A stretch of DNA of 64,000 bases from positions 248,001-312,000 of the forward strand of contig NZ_JAJJZG010000001.1 in assembly GCF_021028995.1 (NCBI RefSeq), read 5' to 3'. The number at the start of each line of letters is the position of its first letter. The stretch's first letter is position 1. Of the stretch, positions 3,227 to 58,931 are shown in pieces. The translations under genes and the position numbers were made by a program. The notes below the pieces were generated by a model. It was not told the origin of the DNA, made no database searches, and was given only the letters and a program-made list of their open reading frames with translations. The stretch is from Halobacterium sp. KA-4. Lineage in GTDB: Archaea; Halobacteriota; Halobacteria; Halobacteriales; Halobacteriaceae.

Positions 3227-4189
3227 ATGACACGGTCCACTCGCCAGCGGGAGCGAGAAACGGCGACAGAGCAGGAGGAGTCCGAGGAGGGCGTACGGGA
3301 GTGCCCGGAGTGCGGCTCTGACAACCTCGTGAAGAGCTCGGACCGCGCGGAGCTGGTCTGCAACGACTGTGGTCTGGTCGTCGAGGAGGAGCAGATCGAC
3401 CCCGGTCCGGAATGGCGCGCGTTCAACCACCAGGAACGACAGGAGAAGTCGCGGGTCGGTGCCCCCACCACGCAGACGATGCACGACAAGGGCCTGACCA
3501 CGACCATCGACTGGAAAGACAAGGACGCCTACGGGCGTTCCATCTCGTCGAAGAAGCGCTCGCAGATGCACCGCCTGCGGAAGTGGCAGGAGCGCATCCG
3601 CACGAAGGACGCCGGCGAGCGCAACCTCCAGTTCGCGCTGTCGGAAATCGACCGCATGGCCTCCGCGCTCGGCGTGCCGCGCTCGGTGCGCGAGGTCGCG
3701 TCGGTCATCTACCGCCGTGCGCTCAAAGAGGATCTCATCCGCGGCCGCTCCATCGAGGGCGTCGCGACGAGCGCGCTGTACGCGGCCTGTCGGAAGGAGG
3801 GCATCCCCCGGAGTCTCGAAGAGATTTCGGAGGTGTCCCGGGTCGAGCGCAAGGAGATCGGTCGCACGTATCGCTACATCTCCCAGGAGCTCGGACTAGA
3901 GATGAAGCCCGTCGACCCGAAGAAGTACGTGCCCCGGTTCTGCTCGGAACTCGAACTCTCCGAGGAAGTCCAGGCGAAAGCCAACGAGATTATCGAGACG
4001 ACTGCCGAGAAGGGACTGCTCTCGGGCAAGTCCCCGACCGGCTACGCGGCGGCCGCAATCTACGCCGCGTCCCTGCTCTGCAACGAGAAGAAGACCCAGC
4101 GCGAGGTCGCGGACGTCGCGCAGGTGACGGAAGTCACCATCCGGAACCGCTACCAGGAGCAGATCGAGGCGATGGGCATCCACAGCTAG
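3227..4189 (+). CDS. tfbG: Transcription initiation factor TFB
   Basis: Recruits RNA polymerase to TBP-bound promoters. The 320-aa protein has an N-terminal zinc ribbon (C26/C29 and C45/C48: CPEC...CNDCG), a B-finger/linker region ([20 protein letters not shown]), and two cyclin-like repeats from about residues 120-215 and 216-310. The second repeat ends in a BRE-recognition helix-turn-helix ([20 protein letters not shown]). All domains are intact. Haloarchaea carry many TFB paralogues; the neighbouring rnhA and rosR genes suggest the TfbG position of H. salinarum, so the paralogue letter is by synteny only. Confidence 0.9.
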
Positions 4190-4292
4190 GCTGTCCCGCC
4201 TCCGGTTCCGTTCTCACCCTCTCCAGCAGCGCCGCTGCCGGCAGTCCACCCGCATCGAAGGGGTTTTGCCCTGGCCATTTTAATGGGGGCAC

Positions 4293-4997
4293 ATGACTAC
4301 CCCGTGGGACGACTGGGACCACGTGCTCAAGGTGGACCCGGACAAGTCGCTGGCCGACGGCGACACGTTCGACGACGTCTGCCAGACGGGCACCGACGCC
4401 ATCGAAATCGGCGGCACGATGGACGTGACGACCGAGAAGATGCGGCGGGTCATCGACGCCTGCCGGAAACACGACGTACCGCTCTACCAGGAACCGTCCA
4501 ATCCTGCGGTCGTCGTCGAGGACGACGCCCTCGACGGCTACCTCGTGCCGGTCGTGTTGAACGCCGGCGACCCGTTCTGGATTACGGGCGCGCACAAGGA
4601 GTGGGTCCGCATCGGCGACCTCGACTGGGAGCGCACCGCTACCGAGGCGTACGTCGTGTTGAACGACGAGGCGAGCGTCGCCGAGTACACGGACGCCGAC
4701 TGTGACCTCGACGCCGACGAGGTGGCGGCGTACGCGGAGGTCGCCGAGAAGATGCTCGGCCAGGACATCGTCTACGTCGAGTACTCCGGCATGCTCGGCG
4801 ACCCCGACGTCGTCGGCGCCGCCCGCGACGCGCTCGACGACGCGACGCTGTTCTACGGCGGCGGCATCCGCGACTACGACGCCGCCTACGAGATGGGCGA
4901 GCGCGCGGACACCATCGTCGTCGGCGACCTGCTCCACGACGAAGGCGTGGACGCCGTCACGGAGACGGTGCGCGGCGTCAACGACGCCCACGAGTAA
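4293..4997 (+). CDS. Geranylgeranylglyceryl phosphate synthase (GGGPS/PcrB family)
   Basis: Makes the first ether bond of archaeal lipids by joining geranylgeranyl diphosphate to sn-glycerol-1-phosphate. The 234-aa TIM barrel starts [18 protein letters not shown] and has the phosphate-binding C-terminal strands [30 protein letters not shown] and [12 protein letters not shown], plus the early [13 protein letters not shown] segment. Size fits family members. The start lies directly after a promoter-like run ending CCATTTTAATGGGGGC at about 4275-4290. It is followed by aspS after an 82-nt gap in the same direction. Confidence 0.9.
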
Positions 4998-47074: not shown

Positions 47075-47133
47075 GGCGCGCGAGGGGCCGTTGACCGACG
47101 AGCATAACAGCCGCCACCCCGTTGCCTTCGTGC

Positions 47134-49707
47134 ATGGACGCGGCGCTCGGGCCACCCGACCAGATGGCCGAGAACGAGAGCGACCTCACGCCGATGATGA
47201 GCCAGTACTTCGAGCTCACGCGGCGCTACGAGGACGCGCTCGTGCTCTTCCAGGTCGGAGACTTCTACGAACTCTTCTGCGACGCGGCGGAGGCCGCCGC
47301 CCGCATCTGCGAGATTACGCTGACCGCACGCGAGGACTCGACCGGAAAATACCCGATGGCGGGCGTACCCATCGACAACGCGGAGCCGTACATCGACGAC
47401 CTGCTGAACGCGGGCTACCGGGTCGCGGTCGCCGACCAGGTCGAGGACCCCGACGAGGTCACGGGGGTCGTCGAGCGGGCAGTGACGCGGGTCGTCACGC
47501 CGGGGACGCTGACCGAGGACGAACTGCTCGCGGGCGACGACAACAACTTCGTCGCGACGGTCGCAGCCGCAGAAAGTGGTGGGTTCGGCCTCGCGCTGCT
47601 GGACGTTTCGACCGGCGACTTCTACGCGACGAGCCTCCCGAACGCGGCGCGCGTGCGGGACGAACTCGGACGGTTCGCGCCCGCCGAGCTCGTCACTGGA
47701 CCAGGTGTAGCGGCCGACCGCTTCGACGACGGGACGTTCGTCGCGGAGTACGACGACGCGGCGTTCGACGGCGAGCGCGCCAGCAGGACCGTGGAGGCGT
47801 ACTTCGGGAGCGTGGACGCGCTCGCTGGCGACGCCGAGGTCGCGGCGTGTGGCGCGCTCCTCGACTACGCCGAGTACACGCGCGGTGGCGAGGACGGCGA
47901 CCGATTGGACTACTTGAATCACCTGACGCGGTACGACCCTCGCGAGTACTTGCAGATGGACGCGGTGGCGCTGCGTAGTCTGGAGGTGTTCGAGCAGCGC
48001 AGTGTCCACGGCGCGGAAGGCACCGCGCTCGTGGACGTGCTCGACGAGACGGCGTGCGCGCTCGGCCGGCGGACGCTGACGGACTGGCTGCGCCGGCCGC
48101 TGACGGACCCCGAGGACATCGAGGCGCGCCACGAGGCCGTGGGCGAACTGCTCGCGGACCCCCTGACGCGCGAGGAACTCCACGAGCACCTGCGGGACGT
48201 CTACGACGTCGAACGGCTGATTTCGCGCGTGTCTCGGGGGCGCGCGAACGCCCGGGACCTGCGCGCGCTGAAGGACACTCTCGACGTAGTGCCCGAGATT
48301 CGGGGGCTGCTGGCGGACGCAGATAGCGAGAAACTCCGCGAGTTGCGCGCGAGCCTCGACGACCTCCCGGAGATTCGGGACCTGCTCTCGCGGGCCATCG
48401 TCCCGGACCCGCCCCAGGAACTCACGGAGGGCGGCGTCATCCGGGACGGCTACGACGAGACGCTGGACGACCTCCGGGAGACCGAGCGCTCGGGGAAGCG
48501 CTGGATAGACGAGTTGGAGCAACAGGAGCGCGAGCGTACGGGCGTCGACTCGCTGAAGGTCGGCCACAACGCGGTCCACGGCTACTACATCGAGGTGACG
48601 AACCCGAACCTCGACGCCGTCCCCGACAATTACCATCGCCGACAGACGCTGAAGAACTCCGAGCGGTTCGTCACGCCCGAATTGAAGGAGCGCGAGGACG
48701 ACATCGTGCGCGCCGAACAGCGCTCCCAGGACCTCGAATACGACCTGTTCCGCGAGGTCCGCAGCCGGGTCGCGGAGGAGGCCGAGCGCGTGCAGGCGAC
48801 GGCAGCGGCGGTCGCGGCCGTGGACGCGCTGGCGTCGTTCGCGACAGTCGCTGCGAGCCACGACTACGCGCGCCCCGAGATGGGTGGCGACGGCATCCAC
48901 GTCGAGGGCGGCCGTCACCCAGTCGTGGAGCGCACGGAGGCCGGGTTCGTGCCCAACGACACAAATCTCACGCCCGAGAGGCGGGTCGCGGTCATCACGG
49001 GGCCGAACATGAGCGGGAAGTCGACGTACATGCGCCAGGTCGCGCTAATCTCGCTGCTCGCGCAGGCCGGGAGCTTCGTCCCTGCGGAGCGTGCACGCCT
49101 CCGGGTCGTCGACCGCATCTTCACCCGCGTTGGCGCCAGCGACGACATCGCGGGCGGGCGCTCGACGTTCATGGTGGAGATGACCGAACTCGCCTCAATT
49201 CTGCGCGCGGCCACCGAGGACTCGCTGGTCCTGCTGGACGAGGTCGGCCGCGGCACCTCCACCACGGACGGCCTCGCCATCGCGCGCGCCGTCACCGAGT
49301 ACGTCCACGACGAACTCGGCGCGACGACGCTGTTCGCGACGCACCACCACGAACTCACGGCGGACGCCGACCGTCTCGCCGACGCCGTGAATCTCCACTT
49401 CGGCGCGACCCGGAGCGAGGAGGGGGTGACGTTCCAGCACGAAGTGCGGGAGGGGCCGGCGACCGCTTCGTACGGCATCGAGGTCGCGCAGACCGCGGGC
49501 GTGCCGGAAACGGTCGTCGAGCGCGCTCGCGAGTTCCTCGACGCGGCAGACGTGAGCGAGGAGCAGACGGAGTCGAGTGCGACAGGAGTAAATGGGAACA
49601 CCAACGAGTCGGTCGTCGAAGCCGCGCTCCGGGACGTGAACGTCGCGGAACTCACACCCGTGGAGGCGTTGAACGTGCTGAACGACCTGAAGCGCGACCT
49701 CGACTGA
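47134..49707 (+). CDS. mutS: DNA mismatch repair protein MutS (MutS1, copy A)
   Basis: Recognises mispairs and small loops. The 857-aa protein has the mismatch-binding domain with the GDFYE motif ([18 protein letters not shown] near 38-55), followed by connector, lever and clamp domains. The ATPase has Walker [37 protein letters not shown], Walker [21 protein letters not shown] and [11 protein letters not shown]. The phenylalanine that stacks on the mismatch is present. ATG at 47134 is used rather than a TTG at 47122. Its stop is immediately followed by the stop of nucS on the other strand (0-nt gap). Confidence 0.95.
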
Positions 49708-50463: not shown

Positions 50464-51240
50464 CTACCGGATGCCGGGCGAGGGCGGGCGCTCGCGCTTG
50501 TGCGTGGAGGACTCGTAGTGCTCGACGAACTCCGCGACCGTCTCGCGGGCCTCGCCGGTGGCCTCGCCGGTCTCCTCGATGGTACGGTCCTCGTCGACGT
50601 ACGCGTGCAGAATCGGGTCGATGACCTCGTAGGGTTCGCCGAGTTCGCCGGGGTCGGTCTGTCCCTCCCAGAGTTCCGCCGTGGGCGTCTTCGCGACGAT
50701 GTCCTCGCTGACGCCGACCTCCTGAGCGAGGTCGTAGGCCTCGGTCTTGTAGACGTCCGCGAGCGGCGCGACGTCGGCAGCGCCGTCACCGTACTTCGTG
50801 AAGTAACCCAGGAGGAGTTCCGAGCGGTTGTTCGGGCCGACGACGAGCGCGTCGTCGTCGTTGGCGGCCTGGTAGAGCAGGACCATCCGGACGCGCGCCT
50901 GAACGTTCCCCACAGTAGTCTTCGAGAGGTCCTCGCGGGCGGCGGTGACGTCGTCGACGATGGGCTGGATGTCGGTCTCGCGGTAGTCCACACCCAGGCG
51001 CTCGCAGACCGCCCGGGCGTCCTCGACGTTCTCGGGGTCGCTGGGGTCCGCGGGCAGCAGGAGGCCGGTAACGCGCTCGGGGCCGACGGCGTCCGCGAGG
51101 AGGTGCGTGGCGAGCACGGAGTCGAGCCCGCCGCTGACGCCGACGACGTAGCCGTCCGCGGGCGTGGCGTCGAGGTAGCTCGCGAGGAACGACCGAATCT
51201 CGTCGGCGGCGGTCGCGAGGTCGAGGTCGAAGTCAGTCAC
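50464..51240 (-). CDS. nadE: NAD+ synthetase
   Basis: 258-aa ammonia-dependent enzyme (no glutaminase domain) that amidates nicotinic acid adenine dinucleotide. The PP-loop is GVSGGLDSVLATHLLADAVG (SGGLDS at 36-41); TTVGNVQARVRMVLLYQAAN, GPNNRSELLLGYFTKYGDGA and AKTPTAELWEGQTDP are family blocks. The GTG at 51240 gives the normal N-terminus (TDFDLDLATAADEIRS); TTG at 51267 is less likely. nadM-like gene precedes it by 38 nt in the same direction, so the two last NAD-pathway steps are probably cotranscribed. Confidence 0.93.
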   Translation of the reverse strand: MTDFDLDLATAADEIRSFLASYLDATPADGYVVGVSGGLDSVLATHLLADAVGPERVTGLLLPADPSDPENVEDARAVCERLGVDYRETDIQPIVDDVTAAREDLSKTTVGNVQARVRMVLLYQAANDDDALVVGPNNRSELLLGYFTKYGDGAADVAPLADVYKTEAYDLAQEVGVSEDIVAKTPTAELWEGQTDPGELGEPYEVIDPILHAYVDEDRTIEETGEATGEARETVAEFVEHYESSTHKRERPPSPGIR

Positions 51241-51278
51241 GGACGAACGCGCGGCCGCCACCGGCAAAAAGCACGTGG

Positions 51279-51830
51279 CTACTCGGCGTTCTCACCGGCC
51301 TCGACGATGACGGGCGCGTACGTCGCGACGCGGTCCTCGCAGCAGTCCGGTACGAGGTCTCGCCACGGCTCGCCCTCGCGGATGCGACGGCGGATTTCGG
51401 TGCCGGAGTAGCGGCCGGGCTCGTGCATACGCTGGGCTTCGACGCGCGCGTCGGTGTACTCGCGGACGATGTCGGCGACCGTCTCGTTGCCCGTGATGAC
51501 GACGTCCGCGTCCGTGCGCGCGACGAGGCGCTGCCCCCAGTCGGGGTAGCCGGCTTCGCCACGGTCCTCGTCGCAGACGCGCACGAGGTCGAGGTCCGGG
51601 AAGCACTCGCGAACGACGTGTTCGCGTTCGGCGGCAGTGAGCGGATTTCGCGGCGTCCGGGCTTTCTGCGGGCTGCCGATGGCGACGACGAGGTCGTACT
51701 CGCGGAGGAATCGGCGGACCGTCCGGTAGTGGCCGACGTGGAACGGCTGGAAGCGACCGGGGAACGCTGCGCGTTCGGGCACGAGAAGCGCTACCGACGG
51801 CGACGACTTGGGTGCTTGGGCTGGACGCAT
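51279..51830 (-). CDS. nadM: Nicotinamide/nicotinate-nucleotide adenylyltransferase (NadM type)
   Basis: 184-aa nucleotidyltransferase. AAFPGRFQPFHVGHYRTVRR holds the HxGH site (H31-G33-H34), VVAIGSPQKARTPRNPLTAA and ITGNETVADIVREYTDARVE follow, and GRYSGTEIRRRIREGEPW is the C-terminal ISSTxxR-like motif. It adenylates NMN or NaMN. The pairing with nadE favours this over the related FAD synthetase-type enzymes. ATG at 51830 fits a promoter-like run (TGGTTTTTCG) directly upstream. Confidence 0.85.
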   Translation of the reverse strand: MRPAQAPKSSPSVALLVPERAAFPGRFQPFHVGHYRTVRRFLREYDLVVAIGSPQKARTPRNPLTAAEREHVVRECFPDLDLVRVCDEDRGEAGYPDWGQRLVARTDADVVITGNETVADIVREYTDARVEAQRMHEPGRYSGTEIRRRIREGEPWRDLVPDCCEDRVATYAPVIVEAGENAE

Positions 51831-52035
51831 CGAAAAACCACGCTGGCCGGCGGTCCCGGCCAGCAGCGAGCGTGGAGCACTCGCCATCGGTTGCGTCAGA
51901 CCACTGCGGGCTGGTCGTCGCGGCCGACCCGCTACGAGGGGACACCAGCCTCGCACGTGGACGGTGCTGGCGGACGACAGAAGACGTTTCGCCGAACATC
52001 TTCTCCGCGGAGTGCACGCCGACGACCCGCTCTCG

Positions 52036-52080
52036 CTTTAAGTATCTCTGGCGACAAGGGATAGATACGAAGAACTTCTC
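52036..52080 (+). repeat. 45-bp promoter-like element, copy 1
   Basis: Starts CTTTAAGTATCTCTGGCGAC, then AAGGGATAGATACGAAG, and ends GAAG-AA-CTTCTC. TTTAAGTA looks like a TATA box; the segment 20-30 nt below (GGGATAGATACGAA) resembles the start region of haloarchaeal rRNA promoters as I recall it. Downstream, GCTACG-CTC-CGTAGC (52086-52100) can form a hairpin. Copy 2 follows 117 nt later. No annotated gene starts between them. Confidence 0.65.
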
Positions 52081-52152
52081 AGCGTGCTACGCTCCGTAGC
52101 CACGGTGCCGTCGTTCGCGTGAACGGTCGTCGGTGTGACGAACGCGAATGTT

Positions 52153-52197
52153 CTTTAAGTGCTTCTGGCGACAAGGGATAGATACGAAGGACTTCTC
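52153..52197 (+). repeat. 45-bp promoter-like element, copy 2
   Basis: Same 45 bp without indels; differs from copy 1 in the bases just after TTTAAGT (GCTT) and in the centre of GAAG-GA-CTTC. It lies about 104 nt above the dsbA-like ATG at 52301 and is the nearest promoter-like element to it. The preceding spacer carries TTCGCGT/ACGCGAA inverted arms. Confidence 0.65.
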
Positions 52198-52300
52198 AGA
52201 GACACCGACTGCAGAGCCGGTGGCTCGTCGGTCGTCGTGGCTCCAGCGGGAACCCCCGCCAGCAGGGACCTTTTCGGCGTGCGCGTCCTACCGAGTAGCG

Positions 52301-52927
52301 ATGAGCGACGCCGACGAAATCACGGTGTACTCCGACTACGTCTGCCCGTTCTGCTACCTCGGGCGGCAGTCGCTGTCGGAGTACCAGGCAGAGCGCGAGG
52401 AACCCCTCGACATCGACTGGCAGCCCTTCGACCTGCGCGCGCAGAAGCGCGGGCCGGACGGCGAAATCGACCACGACGTCGACGACGGCAAGGACGACGA
52501 GTACTTCGAGAAGGCCCGCGAGAACGTCCAGCGCCTCAAAGAGGAGTACGGCGCCGACGAGATGCAGATGGACTTCTCCCGCGAGGTCGACTCGCTGGAC
52601 GCCCAGGCCGCGTCGCTGTACGTCAGCGACGAGTACCCCGAGCAGTGGCTGGACTTCGACGTCGCCATCTTCGAGGCGCTCTGGGAGGAGGGCCGCGACA
52701 TCGGCGACCTCGACGTACTGGTCGACATCGCCGAGGACGTCGGCCTCAACCCCGAGGAGATTCGGGAGGTCGTCGAGAGCGAGCAGTACCACGACGAACT
52801 CCGCGCGGAGTTCCGCGAGGCCCAAGAGCACGGCGTCACCGGCGTCCCGACGTTCGCGTACGACGGCTACGGCGCGCGCGGCGCCGTCCCGCCGTCCCAG
52901 CTCCGCCGCCTCGTCGAAGGGACGTAA
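52301..52927 (+). CDS. DsbA-family oxidoreductase (FrnE-like)
   Basis: 208-aa thioredoxin-fold protein with a helical insertion. EITVYSDYVCPFCYLGRQSL carries the C15-P-F-C18 redox site, the insertion spans about 60-150, and HGVTGVPTFAYDGYGARGAV has the cis-proline TGVPT. No signal peptide, so it is cytosolic, as in FrnE-type disulfide isomerases linked to stress tolerance. Flanked on each side by two copies of the 45-bp element, so it may be driven by the upstream pair. Confidence 0.9.
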   Translation: MSDADEITVYSDYVCPFCYLGRQSLSEYQAEREEPLDIDWQPFDLRAQKRGPDGEIDHDVDDGKDDEYFEKARENVQRLKEEYGADEMQMDFSREVDSLDAQAASLYVSDEYPEQWLDFDVAIFEALWEEGRDIGDLDVLVDIAEDVGLNPEEIREVVESEQYHDELRAEFREAQEHGVTGVPTFAYDGYGARGAVPPSQLRRLVEGT

Positions 52928-52967
52928 GCGCGGTTCGGCGGACTGCGACTGGCCGACACGCAACTTT

Positions 52968-53012
52968 CTTTAAGTGCCTCTGGCGACAAGGGATAGATAT
53001 GAAGAGCTTCTC
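52968..53012 (+). repeat. 45-bp promoter-like element, copy 3
   Basis: Same 45 bp; TTTAAGTGCC variant, GATATGAAG instead of GATACGAAG, and GAAG-AG-CTTC. It begins 41 nt after the dsbA-like stop. The following GTTACG-TCT-CGTAGC can pair through G-U like the hairpin after copy 1. The distance to copy 1 is 932 bp. Confidence 0.65.
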
Positions 53013-53086
53013 AGCGTGTTACGTCTCGTAGCCGCGGCGCTGTCGATAGCGAGCAACCGCCGAGCGTCGTTCGAAGTGCGGTTCCG

Positions 53087-53131
53087 CTTTAAGTATCTCT
53101 GGCGACAAGGGATAGATACGAAGGACTTCTC
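53087..53131 (+). repeat. 45-bp promoter-like element, copy 4
   Basis: Same 45 bp as copy 1 except one base (GAAG-GA-CTTC). It is 119 nt after copy 3 and about 73 nt above the ATG at 53204. A separate TTTAAA box (53173-53178) lies between this copy and the RNAP epsilon start. Confidence 0.65.
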
Positions 53132-53172
53132 GGGGAGTTACGTTCCACAGCCACAGCGCCGCCAGCCGAGAG

Positions 53173-53178
53173 TTTAAA
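53173..53178 (+). promoter_or_regulatory. TATA box of the RNAP epsilon gene
   Basis: TTTAAA in GAGAGTTTAAACCGTG, 26-31 nt above the ATG at 53204, matching leaderless spacing. Confidence 0.55.
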
Positions 53179-53203
53179 CCGTGCGAGGCCACAGGTACCG
53201 GTA

Positions 53204-53923
53204 ATGAGTGCTGACGGCGGCGACCGGATTCGCTGGGAGACGCGCGACGAGCGCCGCGTCGAACACCGACCGGGCTCGGGCGCGCTCTCGCGGGCGGAAG
53301 CCCAGCGCGACACCACGGTCCGCAAGTGGGGCGTCGTCTCCCCGAGCGCGACCGTCATCGGGCGCGCCGAATCCCCCGAAGCCGACCTCTCGGAGAGCAT
53401 CCGGCGGCTCCACGAGGAGCGCCACACTGCGACCGAGGGACACAGCCGCCGCACCCACCACCTCGACCGCCTGCGGACGACACAAGCGCTCTGCAACGCC
53501 ATCGACGTGACGCCGTGGCAGCGCGACGTCGCGCTCGGCGTGATGGGCGACATCGACCTCACTGAGTTCGGCAGCCAGCGCGCCATCGAGAAGGTCGCGC
53601 TCGTGGTCATCCGTCACGTCGTCGACGTCGACCGCCGCCAGTACTTCGGCCTCGACGACCTCGACGCGAACGAGCTCTCCCAGGAGCGCATGAACGACCT
53701 CTACGAACGCTACCGCAGCCACGACATCACCGACGAGCCGGCGTTCGCGGAGCTCGCGGAACGCTACGGTCTCGACAAGACGAGCCTGAACCGGCTGCGT
53801 CGCGTGCTCAAAGCACAGTTACCCGACGGGCTGCCGGCGTTCGGCCGGAACCCGAACCGCGACCCCCACCTCCCGGACGTCACCGAGCGCGACGTCCCCG
53901 ACGAAGTGCCCAGCGACGACTAG
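53204..53923 (+). CDS. RNA polymerase subunit epsilon (haloarchaeal)
   Basis: 239 aa. After a charged N-terminus, VRKWGVVSPSATVIGRAESP begins the conserved part, then RLRTTQALCNAIDVTPWQRD, LGVMGDIDLTEFGSQRAIEK, VALVVIRHVVDVDRRQYFGL and ERYGLDKTSLNRLRRVLKAQ. It is helical and TFB-cyclin-like in feel. From memory this is the protein annotated as RNA polymerase epsilon in Halobacterium, a loosely associated, poorly understood subunit. The assignment rests on family resemblance alone. It ends 1 nt before the stop of the convergent thioredoxin. Confidence 0.75.
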   Translation: MSADGGDRIRWETRDERRVEHRPGSGALSRAEAQRDTTVRKWGVVSPSATVIGRAESPEADLSESIRRLHEERHTATEGHSRRTHHLDRLRTTQALCNAIDVTPWQRDVALGVMGDIDLTEFGSQRAIEKVALVVIRHVVDVDRRQYFGLDDLDANELSQERMNDLYERYRSHDITDEPAFAELAERYGLDKTSLNRLRRVLKAQLPDGLPAFGRNPNRDPHLPDVTERDVPDEVPSDD

Positions 53924-53924
53924 G

Positions 53925-54272
53925 TCAGTCGAGGTGTTCGTCGAGGAATTCCTCGATGTCGTCGCCGCCCTGGAATCCCTCGGCGAGCCGCGCGACTTCT
54001 TTGCCGTCTTCGACGAGAACGAGCGTCGGCGCGCTCCGCACGTCCCACTCGTCGACCAGCGAGATGTCGTTGCCGGGGTTGACCATCGCGACCGTGATGC
54101 CCGTGGCTTTGGCTATATTGCCGAGGACTGGCTCGATTGCCTGGCAGAGCGAGCACCCCTTCGTGTAGAAGTCCACGAGTACGCGGTCGTGGGTGGCGAG
54201 GACGTCGGCGAGTTCGTCGCCGTCCGCGACGCGAATCGGTTTCTGTACGTTCTGTTGTGACTCCGTGCTCAT
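53925..54272 (-). CDS. Thioredoxin-fold protein with CSLC site
   Basis: 115 aa. RVLVDFYTKGCSLCQAIEPV places the redox pair at C40/C43, separated by Ser-Leu instead of the usual Gly-Pro, which would shift its redox potential. VAMVNPGNDISLVDEWDVRS, APTLVLVEDGKEVARLAEGF and a final acidic helix complete the fold; the cis-proline AP is present. A disulfide reductase role is likely. Convergent with RNAP epsilon. Confidence 0.88.
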   Translation of the reverse strand: MSTESQQNVQKPIRVADGDELADVLATHDRVLVDFYTKGCSLCQAIEPVLGNIAKATGITVAMVNPGNDISLVDEWDVRSAPTLVLVEDGKEVARLAEGFQGGDDIEEFLDEHLD

Positions 54273-54344
54273 GTAGAAATGTAGGGTGCGAGCGCGGAAA
54301 AGGACTGCTGCGGGGGCGCGTACCGCCGGCGCCCACGGAACAGG

Positions 54345-55067
54345 TTATTCGAGGTCTTCGAGGTACTCCGTGGTCTCCTCGGTCTGGAGTTCGCGGAACA
54401 GCTCGGAGTCAGCGTCCACGGTGGCGACGCCGACGCCCTCCGCGGAGAGTTCGTCGTCGCGGCCCTCGTTGAGCGCGCGGAGCGCGAGGTCGACGCCCTC
54501 GTCGAGGGAGAGGTCGGTCTCGTACTCGTCTTCGAGGTACTCCTGGATGACCGAGCGGTCCGAGCCGATGGCGACGGCCTTCCACTCGTTGGAGGTCCCG
54601 GATGGGTCCGTCTCGAAGAGGCGGGGTTCGCCGTCGGAGATGCCCGCGACGAGGAGCGCGACGCCGAACGGGCGTGCGCCACCGACCTGCGTGTACTGCT
54701 GGATGTGGTCGGTGACTTCCTTCGTCAGCGTGCGGACGCCGATTGGTTCGTCGTAGCGCACGCGCTCGACCTGAGACTGCTGGCGCGCGAAGTCCACGAG
54801 TTTCCGGGCGTCGGCGACGTGGCCGGCGCTGGCGGCGCCGACGTGGTCGTCGACCTTGTGGAGCTTCTCGACGCTGGAGCCCTCGAGGAGCGGCGAACGG
54901 GTGCGCTTGTCCACGACGAGGACGACGCCGTCCTCGGTGCGGACGCCGATGCTCGCGGTGCCTCGTTTGACCGCTTCCCGCGCGTACTCCACCTGGTAGA
55001 GGCGGCCGTCCGGCGAGAAAATCGTGATACCGCGGTCGTAGGCCTGCTGTTGGTTCTGACCCTGCAT
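54345..55067 (-). CDS. psmA: Proteasome subunit alpha
   Basis: 240-aa outer-ring subunit of the 20S proteasome, which gates substrate entry. The N-terminal gate YDRGITIFSPDGRLYQVEYA is the diagnostic alpha signature, followed by REAVKRGTASIGVRTEDGVV, LFETDPSGTSNEWKAVAIGS and a C-terminal helix. Start MQGQNQQQAYDRG at 55067; the longer open frame upstream is antisense to the HypE-like gene. The beta subunit is not in this window. Confidence 0.96.
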   Translation of the reverse strand: MQGQNQQQAYDRGITIFSPDGRLYQVEYAREAVKRGTASIGVRTEDGVVLVVDKRTRSPLLEGSSVEKLHKVDDHVGAASAGHVADARKLVDFARQQSQVERVRYDEPIGVRTLTKEVTDHIQQYTQVGGARPFGVALLVAGISDGEPRLFETDPSGTSNEWKAVAIGSDRSVIQEYLEDEYETDLSLDEGVDLALRALNEGRDDELSAEGVGVATVDADSELFRELQTEETTEYLEDLE

Positions 55068-56274: not shown

Positions 56275-56304
56275 ATGCGAGCGAGGAACCAGCCATGGGC
56301 ATAG
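56275..56304 (+). CDS. Possible 9-codon leader ORF overlapping the mutS1B start
   Basis: ATG at 56275 reads MRARNQPWA and stops at TAG (56302-56304), seven nt into the mutS1B reading frame, in a different frame. GTTCTTTG at 56243-56250 is 25-32 nt above it. This could be a leaderless leader that delivers ribosomes to the mutS start at 56295. The weak promoter and short length keep confidence low. Confidence 0.25.
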   Translation: MRARNQPWA

Positions 56305-58931
56305 TCGAGGAGTTCCTCGACCTGAAAGACGAGACCGACGCCGATCTGCTCGCGATGCAGGTCGGGGACTTCTACGAGTTCTTCGCGGAGGACGCGCGCA
56401 CGGTCGCGGACGTCCTCGACCTGCAGGTCTCCGAGAAGTCCGCGCACGGGTCGTCGTACCCGATGGCGGGCGTGCCCGTCGACGACCTGACGCCGTACGT
56501 CGCGACGCTAGTCGAGCGCGGCTACCGCGTCGCCATCGCCGACCAAGTCGAGGACGGCGCCGACGACATCGAGCGCGAAATCACCCGGGTCGCCACGCCC
56601 GGGACGTTCGTGGACGTAACTGGCGCGGACGCCCGCTACCTCGCGGCGGTCGTCCGCGACGAGACGTGGGGGTTGGCGTTCGTGGACGTGACGACGGGCC
56701 AGTTCCACGTCGCGGACGCCGAGACGGAGACGGACGTGCTGACGGAACTTCACCGGTTCAGCCCTGAGGAAGTACTGCCCGGCCCCGAGTTGCGGGGCGA
56801 CGACGACTTCCTCGGCGCGCTCCGCGAGCGCGCGGACGCGACGCTGACGCTGCACGAGGCGTCGGCGTTCGCGCCCGGGAAGGCCGCCCACAGCGTGCGC
56901 AAGCAGTTCGGCGACGGCGCGCTCGACAGCCTCGGCGTCGACAGCGACAGCCCGGCAGCGCGAGCAGCGGGCGCAGCCATCGACTACGTGGCGGCGACGG
57001 ACGCGGGCGTGCTGGCGTCGCTGACGCGCCTCCAGCCCTATCGTGCGGACGACCACGTCGAACTGGACGCGACGACCCAGCGCAACCTCGAACTGACGGC
57101 GACGATGGGCGGCGACGGCGACGGGTCGCTGTTCGCCACGCTCGACCACACGGTATCCGCTGCTGGCGGTCGACGTCTGCAAGCGTGGTTGACCCGCCCA
57201 CTCCGAGACCGCGCGGAACTGGCGCGCCGGCAGGCCGCCGTGGGCGCGCTCGCGGACGCACCGCTCGCGCGTGACGGGCTCCGGGACGTGCTCGGCGACG
57301 TCTACGACCTCGAACGCCTCGCGAGCCGGGCGGCTGGCGGGCGGGCCGACGCGACGGACCTGCTCCGAATCCGGGAGACGCTTGCGGCGCTACCCGAGGC
57401 CGTGGACGCGCTCGAGTCCGACCCCGACCTCGCGGACTCGCCCGTGACGGAGGTGTTGGAGGGCGTGGACCGCGAGGCGGCCGCCGGGGTGCGCGCCGAA
57501 CTGGACGCCGCGCTCGCCGAGGACCCGCCGAAGACGCTCCGAGAGGGAGGCCTACTTCGCGAAGGGTACGACGACGAACTCGACGAGTTGCTCCAGGAAG
57601 CCCGCGAGCACGAGGAGTGGCTGGACGGGCTGGCGTCCCGCGAGAAGGACCGGCTGGGAATCACGCACCTGCAGGTCGACCGGAACAAAACCGACGGCTA
57701 CTACGTGCAGGTCGGCAAGTCCGAGACCGACGCAGTACCCGAGGCGTACCGCGAGGTGAAGTCCCTGAAGAACTCCACGCGGTACACCACCGAGGAACTC
57801 GAAGAACGGGAGCGGCGGATTCTGCTCGTCGAGGAGGAGCGCGGCGACCTCGAGTACGAGTTGTTCGACGACCTGCGCGAGTGGGTGGGCGGGCACGCCG
57901 AAGCCCTCCAGCGCGTCGGCCGCGCGCTCGCCGAACTGGACGCGCTCGCCAGCCTCGCCGAGCACGCGGCCGCGAACCGGTGGATTCAGCCTGAACTCGT
58001 TGACGGCGACGACCTCGCAATCGAGGGCGGCCGCCACCCCGTCGTCGAGCAGACTACCGAATTCGTGCCGAACGACGCGCGGTTCGGCGACGGGAGACGA
58101 TTCCTCGTCGTCACAGGCCCGAACATGAGCGGGAAGTCGACGTACATGCGGCAGGTCGCCCTAATAGTCCTGCTTGCGCAGGTCGGCAGTTACGTGCCCG
58201 CCGACGCCGCCCGCATCGGCCTCGTGGACGGCATCTACACGCGGGTCGGCGCGCTGGACGAACTCGCGCAGGGGCGCTCGACGTTCATGGTGGAGATGCA
58301 GGAACTCAGCCGCATCCTCCACGCCGCGACCGAGCGCTCGCTCGTAATCCTGGACGAGGTCGGGCGCGGGACCGCGACCTACGACGGCATCTCCATCGCG
58401 TGGGCAGCCACAGAGTATCTGCACAACGAGGTCAGAGCAAAAACCCTGTTCGCGACCCACTACCACGAACTCACGGCGCTCGCGGACCACCTCGCCGACG
58501 TCGCGAACGTCCACGTCGCCGCCGAAGAGCGCGACGGGGACGTGACGTTCCTGCGGACGGTCCGGGACGGCGCGACCGACCGCTCGTATGGCGTCCACGT
58601 CGCGGACCTCGCGGGCGTCCCCGACCCGGTCGTGGACCGCTCGCGAGAGGTGCTGGACCGCCTCCGCGAGGAGAAGGCCGTCGAAGCCCGGGGTTCGGCG
58701 AGCGAACCCGTGCAAGCGGTGTTCGACCTCGATTCCGGCGAGTTCGACGCGGGGAGCGCGGAGGAGCCGTCAGTCGAAACCGAGAGCGCTGCGGACGGCG
58801 GCGAGACAGCGGAACTGGACCCCGAGGCGCGCGAGGTGCTCGACGACCTCCGGGACGTCGACGTCAACGAGACGCCGCCCGTGGAACTGCTCTCGCGCGT
58901 GCAGGAGTGGCAGCGGCGGCTGGACGAGTAG
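56295..58931 (+). CDS. mutS: DNA mismatch repair protein MutS (MutS1, copy B)
   Basis: 878 aa, a second full MutS1. The mismatch domain carries LLAMQVGDFYEFFAEDART and SSYPMAGVPVDDLTPYVATL; the clamp follows, then Walker [40 protein letters not shown], Walker [21 protein letters not shown] and TLFATHYHELT. A 100-residue acidic tail separates the ATPase from a C-terminal helical dimer segment (VDVNETPPVELLSRVQEWQR). mutL follows 40 nt downstream, so this copy is the likely partner of MutL. Confidence 0.95.
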   Translation: MGIVEEFLDLKDETDADLLAMQVGDFYEFFAEDARTVADVLDLQVSEKSAHGSSYPMAGVPVDDLTPYVATLVERGYRVAIADQVEDGADDIEREITRVATPGTFVDVTGADARYLAAVVRDETWGLAFVDVTTGQFHVADAETETDVLTELHRFSPEEVLPGPELRGDDDFLGALRERADATLTLHEASAFAPGKAAHSVRKQFGDGALDSLGVDSDSPAARAAGAAIDYVAATDAGVLASLTRLQPYRADDHVELDATTQRNLELTATMGGDGDGSLFATLDHTVSAAGGRRLQAWLTRPLRDRAELARRQAAVGALADAPLARDGLRDVLGDVYDLERLASRAAGGRADATDLLRIRETLAALPEAVDALESDPDLADSPVTEVLEGVDREAAAGVRAELDAALAEDPPKTLREGGLLREGYDDELDELLQEAREHEEWLDGLASREKDRLGITHLQVDRNKTDGYYVQVGKSETDAVPEAYREVKSLKNSTRYTTEELEERERRILLVEEERGDLEYELFDDLREWVGGHAEALQRVGRALAELDALASLAEHAAANRWIQPELVDGDDLAIEGGRHPVVEQTTEFVPNDARFGDGRRFLVVTGPNMSGKSTYMRQVALIVLLAQVGSYVPADAARIGLVDGIYTRVGALDELAQGRSTFMVEMQELSRILHAATERSLVILDEVGRGTATYDGISIAWAATEYLHNEVRAKTLFATHYHELTALADHLADVANVHVAAEERDGDVTFLRTVRDGATDRSYGVHVADLAGVPDPVVDRSREVLDRLREEKAVEARGSASEPVQAVFDLDSGEFDAGSAEEPSVETESAADGGETAELDPEAREVLDDLRDVDVNETPPVELLSRVQEWQRRLDE

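Follow-up and report, generated by a model that had tools for sequence, protein, structure and literature searches.

The DNA analysed here, a 64,000-nucleotide stretch of the Halobacterium sp. KA-4 genome (hereafter the window), contains four plus-strand copies of a short element set among three genes. A nadM-like nicotinamide-nucleotide adenylyltransferase gene (51282..51830, minus strand, CTP_transf_like) diverges from element copy 1. On the plus strand are a dsbA-like thioredoxin-fold gene (52301..52927; Pfam DSBA, E 4.9e-36) and rpoeps (53204..53923), which encodes the 239-aa epsilon subunit of DNA-directed RNA polymerase and was named from the RefSeq product names of its plasmid-borne orthologs. 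Four RefSeq proteins called "DNA-directed RNA polymerase subunit epsilon" are 56-61% identical to the window protein across 85-92% of its length, and rpoeps of Halobacterium salinarum (OE_1279R) belongs to the same RefSeq-named family. The gene dsbA separates the two pairs of copies: copies 1 and 2 occupy the interval from nadM to dsbA, and copies 3 and 4 that from dsbA to rpoeps. Separate from the element, rpoeps possesses a proximal TATA box, TTTAAAC (53173..53179, plus strand), lying 31 bp before the ATG as in a leaderless-type promoter. This box, at about -31, is conserved in Halobacterium relatives, and the f8 genomes have a conserved CTTTTTC at a similar position. Also conserved among Halobacterium relatives is CCAGCGGGAACCCCCGCCAGCAGGGACCTTTTC (52243-52275) upstream of dsbA, in which an inverted repeat precedes CTTTTC, probably a TATA-like sequence. 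We found no sigma-70-type promoters or intrinsic terminators in the element region.

The four copies begin with CTTTAAGT at 52036, 52153, 52968, and 53087 and form two tandem pairs with spacings of 117 and 119 bp, exactly as a sequence-only reading of this DNA had described them. Their 20-bp core, TCTGGCGACAAGGGATAGAT, is invariant as that reading had claimed, with four exact matches and no further match in the window at up to three mismatches (chance expectation 0.00); a search of the whole genome (3.34 Mb, 55 contigs) detected these four copies only. Copy 1 (52028..52080, plus strand) consists of upstream bases CGCTCTCGC, a TATA-like TTTAAGTA (52037-52044), a box TCTGGCGACAAG (52047-52058), a start-site motif TAGATACGA (52062-52070), and GAAGAACTTC (52069-52078), and scores 64.8 with the element matrix (E 6.7e-11 with R1, a sequence-only covariance model). 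Copy 2, upstream of dsbA (52145..52197, plus strand; matrix score 69.5, R1 E 1.6e-12), carries TTTAAGTG at 52154-52161, the box at 52164-52175, TAGATACGA at 52179-52187, and GAAGGACTTC at 52186-52195. Between dsbA and rpoeps, copy 3 (52960..53012, plus strand; 62.9, E 1.1e-11) has TTTAAGTG at 52969-52976, the box at 52979-52990, and TAGATATGA at 52994-53002. It is followed by copy 4 (53079..53131, plus strand; 64.8, E 8.7e-11), with TTTAAGTA at 53088-53095, the box at 53098-53109, and TAGATACGA at 53113-53121, and its TATA-like sequence is 116 bp from the rpoeps start codon. Two details of the earlier description need correction. The 45-bp limit given to the repeat is too short for copies 1, 3, and 4, which are 82-85% alike over 84 nt. 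The terminal palindrome GAAG-NN-CTTC has the centers reported for it (AA, GA, AG, GA), but its arms are not fixed within the genus, as the site reads GAGCGGCG or similar in three other Halobacterium genomes (G003, G006, G007).

Across 173 copies, the consensus is TTTAAGT(R), then, about 3 bp later, TCTSGCGAYAAG, and finally TAGATACGA where the start site is expected. The information profile rises at -9..-1, is near-maximal at TTTAAGT (positions 1-7), high at YTCTSGCGAYAAG (10-22) and at TAGATACGA (26-34), weaker at 35-52, and shows nothing outside -9..+52. We took as the layout of a basal promoter a TATA-like box 24-30 bp upstream of a start motif, with BRE-like bases farther upstream, and the element has it: biased bases at -9..-1, TTTAAGT(R) at 1-8, and the start motif at 26-34. 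These features, found throughout the order, make it very probable that the element is a real promoter. The promoters of rRNA in the same genome, CTTAAGT-N22-TGCGAACG in tandem at 133-134 bp, share with the element the TATA-to-start spacing, TTAAGT, a spacer of about 22 nt, a CGAA start motif, and a tandem arrangement (copies about 120-135 bp apart). From the common spacing and CGAA motif, we infer that transcription starts near element positions 31-33. The middle part differs, with TCTSGCGAYAAGGNNTAGA in the element against ATAACGGGCGTT... in the haloarchaeal rRNA promoters (TTAAGTA...TGCGAACG), and on the element matrix the best rRNA promoter scores about -30, compared with 41-73 for element copies. 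The 16S locus is without such an element. The different middle box and the low rRNA promoter scores therefore point to a promoter class separate from that of rRNA.

The element is found well beyond this locus, as the search of haloarchaeal genomes proposed by the sequence-only reading revealed: of 392 Halobacteriales genomes, 180 gave a match to model R1, and all 13 Halobacterium genomes examined have 2-6 copies. A strict pattern matched 121 of the 392 genomes (its reversed control gave no match), but it undercounted drifted copies as a presence test and was replaced by R1. Indeed, a drifted copy such as TTTAAGTGCCTCTGGTCACAAGGTGAAGCTACGA adjoins rpoeps at nearly all inspected loci of the rpoeps genomes that fail the strict pattern. 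A strong rpoeps match, defined as a protein search hit with E < 1e-30, was likewise obtained in 180 of the 392 genomes. Both were present in 176 genomes and neither in 208, with four genomes having the element only and four rpoeps only. Because genomes are not independent, the Fisher p of 3e-101 for this co-occurrence overstates its significance and is best taken as no more than "very strong". Presence and absence both occur inside families f1, f4, f5, f6, f7, and f14, so the association does not reflect a single split of the tree. Among the genomes with the element only, the assembly contig of G010 ends before rpoeps, and the other three (G173, G273, G362) encode a distant epsilon homolog with a copy, TTTAAGTAYTTCTTGCGACAA, 45-50 bp past its stop codon. 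At these loci (L255-L257, L262), from lineages lacking standard rpoeps, the element has a different start motif, and a CCCC..GGGG inverted repeat comes after the element. Of the four genomes with rpoeps only, G284 shows a weak copy some 160-180 bp upstream of the gene. No epsilon appeared outside the Halobacteriales among the matches listed for a 295-genome sample of the phylum.

This tie between the element and the epsilon gene across the order was absent from the sequence-only reading. Among 93 distinct rpoeps genes, 91 have an adjacent copy (no farther than 1 kb on the upstream or 0.6 kb on the downstream side) and 88 a same-strand upstream copy, at a median of 167 bp; the distance from the TATA of these upstream copies to the rpoeps start codon is 108-468 bp. 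In Halorussus and in genus g31, extra copies are found at the 3' side of rpoeps, pointing back. Halococcus dombrowskii and Halorussus vallis have plasmids on which the gene and the element occur together. The latter plasmid (NZ_CP100002.1) carries rpoeps, an array of four tandem copies about 155-162 bp apart (L203, 110091-128753, locus positions 3964-4442), and three more copies beyond it; in the array, a GC-rich inverted repeat comes after each copy, with a T-rich stretch behind it.

If the linked copies were only cis-regulatory DNA of rpoeps, their co-occurrence with the gene would be trivial, and it is only the unlinked copies, with the variants that they share, that argue for a role in trans. 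In g6 and g23, unlinked copies differ at the variable core positions by 3.6-3.7 mismatches from linked copies of their own genus and by 5.7-7.5 from those of other genera; the effect is slight in g31 (4.7 vs. 5.2-5.5). The flanks of unlinked and linked copies are unrelated (24-29% identity). Genus-specific core variants common to both sets of copies despite unrelated flanks suggest one shared trans-acting reader, with ancient duplication as a less likely explanation. Of the genes lying nearest downstream of unlinked copies, 40 share the strand of the copy and 33 are convergent, with no clear preference of the copies for preceding genes. A UbiA-like prenyltransferase of Halorussus, so named by its sequence, is among the recurring sense neighbors. 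In the g31 genomes (L074-L091, L129, L131), dispersed copies from differing gene contexts have in common a tail of about 95 nt with the palindrome GTTAGTAnnnnATACTAAC at its end.

Epsilon was discovered in 1983 as an extra subunit of RNA polymerase; Hbt. salinarum is the sole species in which it is known to co-purify with the polymerase, and a 2021 article still termed its role "enigmatic" (PMC8305020). The polymerase containing epsilon was efficient on native templates and the polymerase without it was not (Madon and Zillig, told in PMC8305020). That article was the only relevant one in our literature search on the motif and rpoeps, and none of the articles consulted tied a promoter element to rpoeps. 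A structure model built from a 74-sequence alignment has a confident helical core, with most core blocks at pLDDT of about 82-96. In structural comparison, residues 77-210 match TFIIB, archaeal TFB, and Brf, and also cyclins, with Z of about 10-11 over some 100 residues, and cyclins fit the model as well as TFIIB does. Foldseek alone gave no match with E below 0.001, and by sequence we found no solved structure of an epsilon relative and no homology to TFB (hhalign probability 0.3%, no TFIIB Pfam match). With a structural match and no sequence link, the fold of one cyclin-like repeat is likely for the predicted model, and kinship with TFB is put forward as a hypothesis. As regards the two cyclin repeats and zinc ribbon, the 239-aa protein has one helical core in the model and an N-terminal tail of low confidence.

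We lean slightly toward the view that the element is a class of promoter used by the polymerase containing epsilon, through which rpoeps would be autoregulated and a few short transcription units driven. The observations taken into account are the repetition, the promoter-like anatomy, the linkage to and co-occurrence with rpoeps, the genus-specific shared variants, and the predicted fold. The element would be a distinct core promoter comprising BRE-like upstream bases, the TTTAAGT TATA, the box TCTSGCGAYAAG at about -20 to -9, and the TAGATACGA start, and the box would be read by the polymerase carrying epsilon. Epsilon, resembling TFIIB and cyclins, may touch DNA just downstream of the TATA, which is also the site of the first cyclin repeat of TFB/TFIIB. 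The four copies of the window would then direct epsilon-dependent tandem transcription into dsbA and toward rpoeps; the latter would amount to autoregulation of rpoeps, in addition to its own leaderless promoter, and from the unlinked copies elsewhere, short units would be transcribed. We give about even chances to epsilon itself being the reader of the element, and this estimate, like those for the promoter identity above and for small RNA genes below, is a judgement and not a computed value. Counting against the epsilon-promoter proposal are the proximal promoter that rpoeps already has, the unclear downstream-gene preference of unlinked copies, the weak g31 signal, and, for epsilon itself, the missing sequence similarity to TFB, the Foldseek result, and the equally good fit of cyclins.

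More tentatively, epsilon could be a dedicated promoter-specificity factor, comparable to a bacterial alternative sigma: a TFB-like reader of TCTSGCGAYAAG with a single cyclin repeat that would control both its own gene and a few short transcripts forming a small regulon, and that would move between haloarchaea together with its promoter. A TFIIB-like factor choosing a subset of promoters has a parallel in the promoters that alternative TFB/TBP paralogs of Halobacterium are believed to select (e.g. PMC2121645). The factor proposed here differs in being epsilon, with one cyclin-like repeat and no TFB sequence match, and the element differs in that its conserved box is downstream of the TATA. 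By following rpoeps across the order, the element provides candidate target sites for epsilon and a lead on its role. Should epsilon read it, promoter choice in archaea would include a sigma-like layer in addition to the TFB and TBP paralogs, and standard archaeal promoter models would be missing a conserved box that follows the TATA.

Several other explanations have to be weighed against epsilon-dependent promoters. The sequence-only reading had taken the copies for rRNA-type growth-rate promoters of dsbA and rpoeps. Alignment with this genome's rRNA promoters bears out the TTAAGT and TRCGAA parts, the spacing, and the tandem arrangement, but not the 22-nt middle, and a growth-rate role finds no support. 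The genomic context is another one, without growth genes, and the distribution tracks rpoeps, not rRNA; we regard this explanation as improbable. Somewhat less so, although still unlikely, is that the copies are operator sites at which a repressor, epsilon or another, binds the box and controls rpoeps and its neighbors, the TATA-like part being incidental and no transcription starting there. The tight conservation of the internal box, the tandem copies, and the closeness of rpoeps would suit an operator, yet the TATA-like and start motifs are conserved as well, at the spacing of rRNA promoters, and the upstream copies lie 108-468 bp from rpoeps and not over its own TATA. A mobile or decayed MITE-like repeat spread by duplication, a case that the sequence-only reading had itself raised, is very unlikely. 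It would agree with the several dispersed copies per genome, some of them plasmid-borne, and with the common tail of 95 nt ending in a palindrome in the single genus g31; elsewhere, conservation ends after about 52 nt, the flanks are only 24-29% identical, and there are no general common ends. Internal spacing is, moreover, fixed order-wide and copies are placed beside rpoeps, and we rejected a mobile element on the basis of these flanks and this placement.

It is also possible, albeit clearly less probable than epsilon-dependent promoters in general, that the family consists of small non-coding RNA genes, with the box as their promoter, a short RNA as the product, and epsilon an optional need; this idea, already put forward in the sequence-only reading, is compatible with the epsilon-promoter proposal. 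Conserved motifs after the start speak for it: 90% of copies have TT[CT]T no more than 27 nt past the core (about 16-29% elsewhere), AGC[CG]RYNGC occurs 20-70 nt after the core in 26% (1-7% elsewhere), and unlinked copies often have no sense gene. The folding of the presumed RNA speaks for it weakly, except in some lineages. Hairpins at the 5' end are more frequent than in shuffled sequences in most lineages, but this excess is absent in Halobacterium itself, and over their first 45-80 nt the sequences do not, overall, fold with lower energy than shuffles (mean z about 0). Searching 51000-54500 against Rfam gave no match up to E 1. Stems beside TTYT are mildly enriched in two genera only, and the AGC..GCT arms are not extended by pairing. 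In g6 the hairpins are strong, and at 6 of their 9 pairs both sides have changed, a count just modestly over controls.

Two further sets of genes were recorded. The genome has 24 TFIIB-repeat matches and about a dozen TFB-like genes, one of them inside the window at about 3600-4200 (G000:C11:251620-252168). Two mutS-like genes, named from sequence, lie within 12 kb (window 47122-49707 and 56295-58931).
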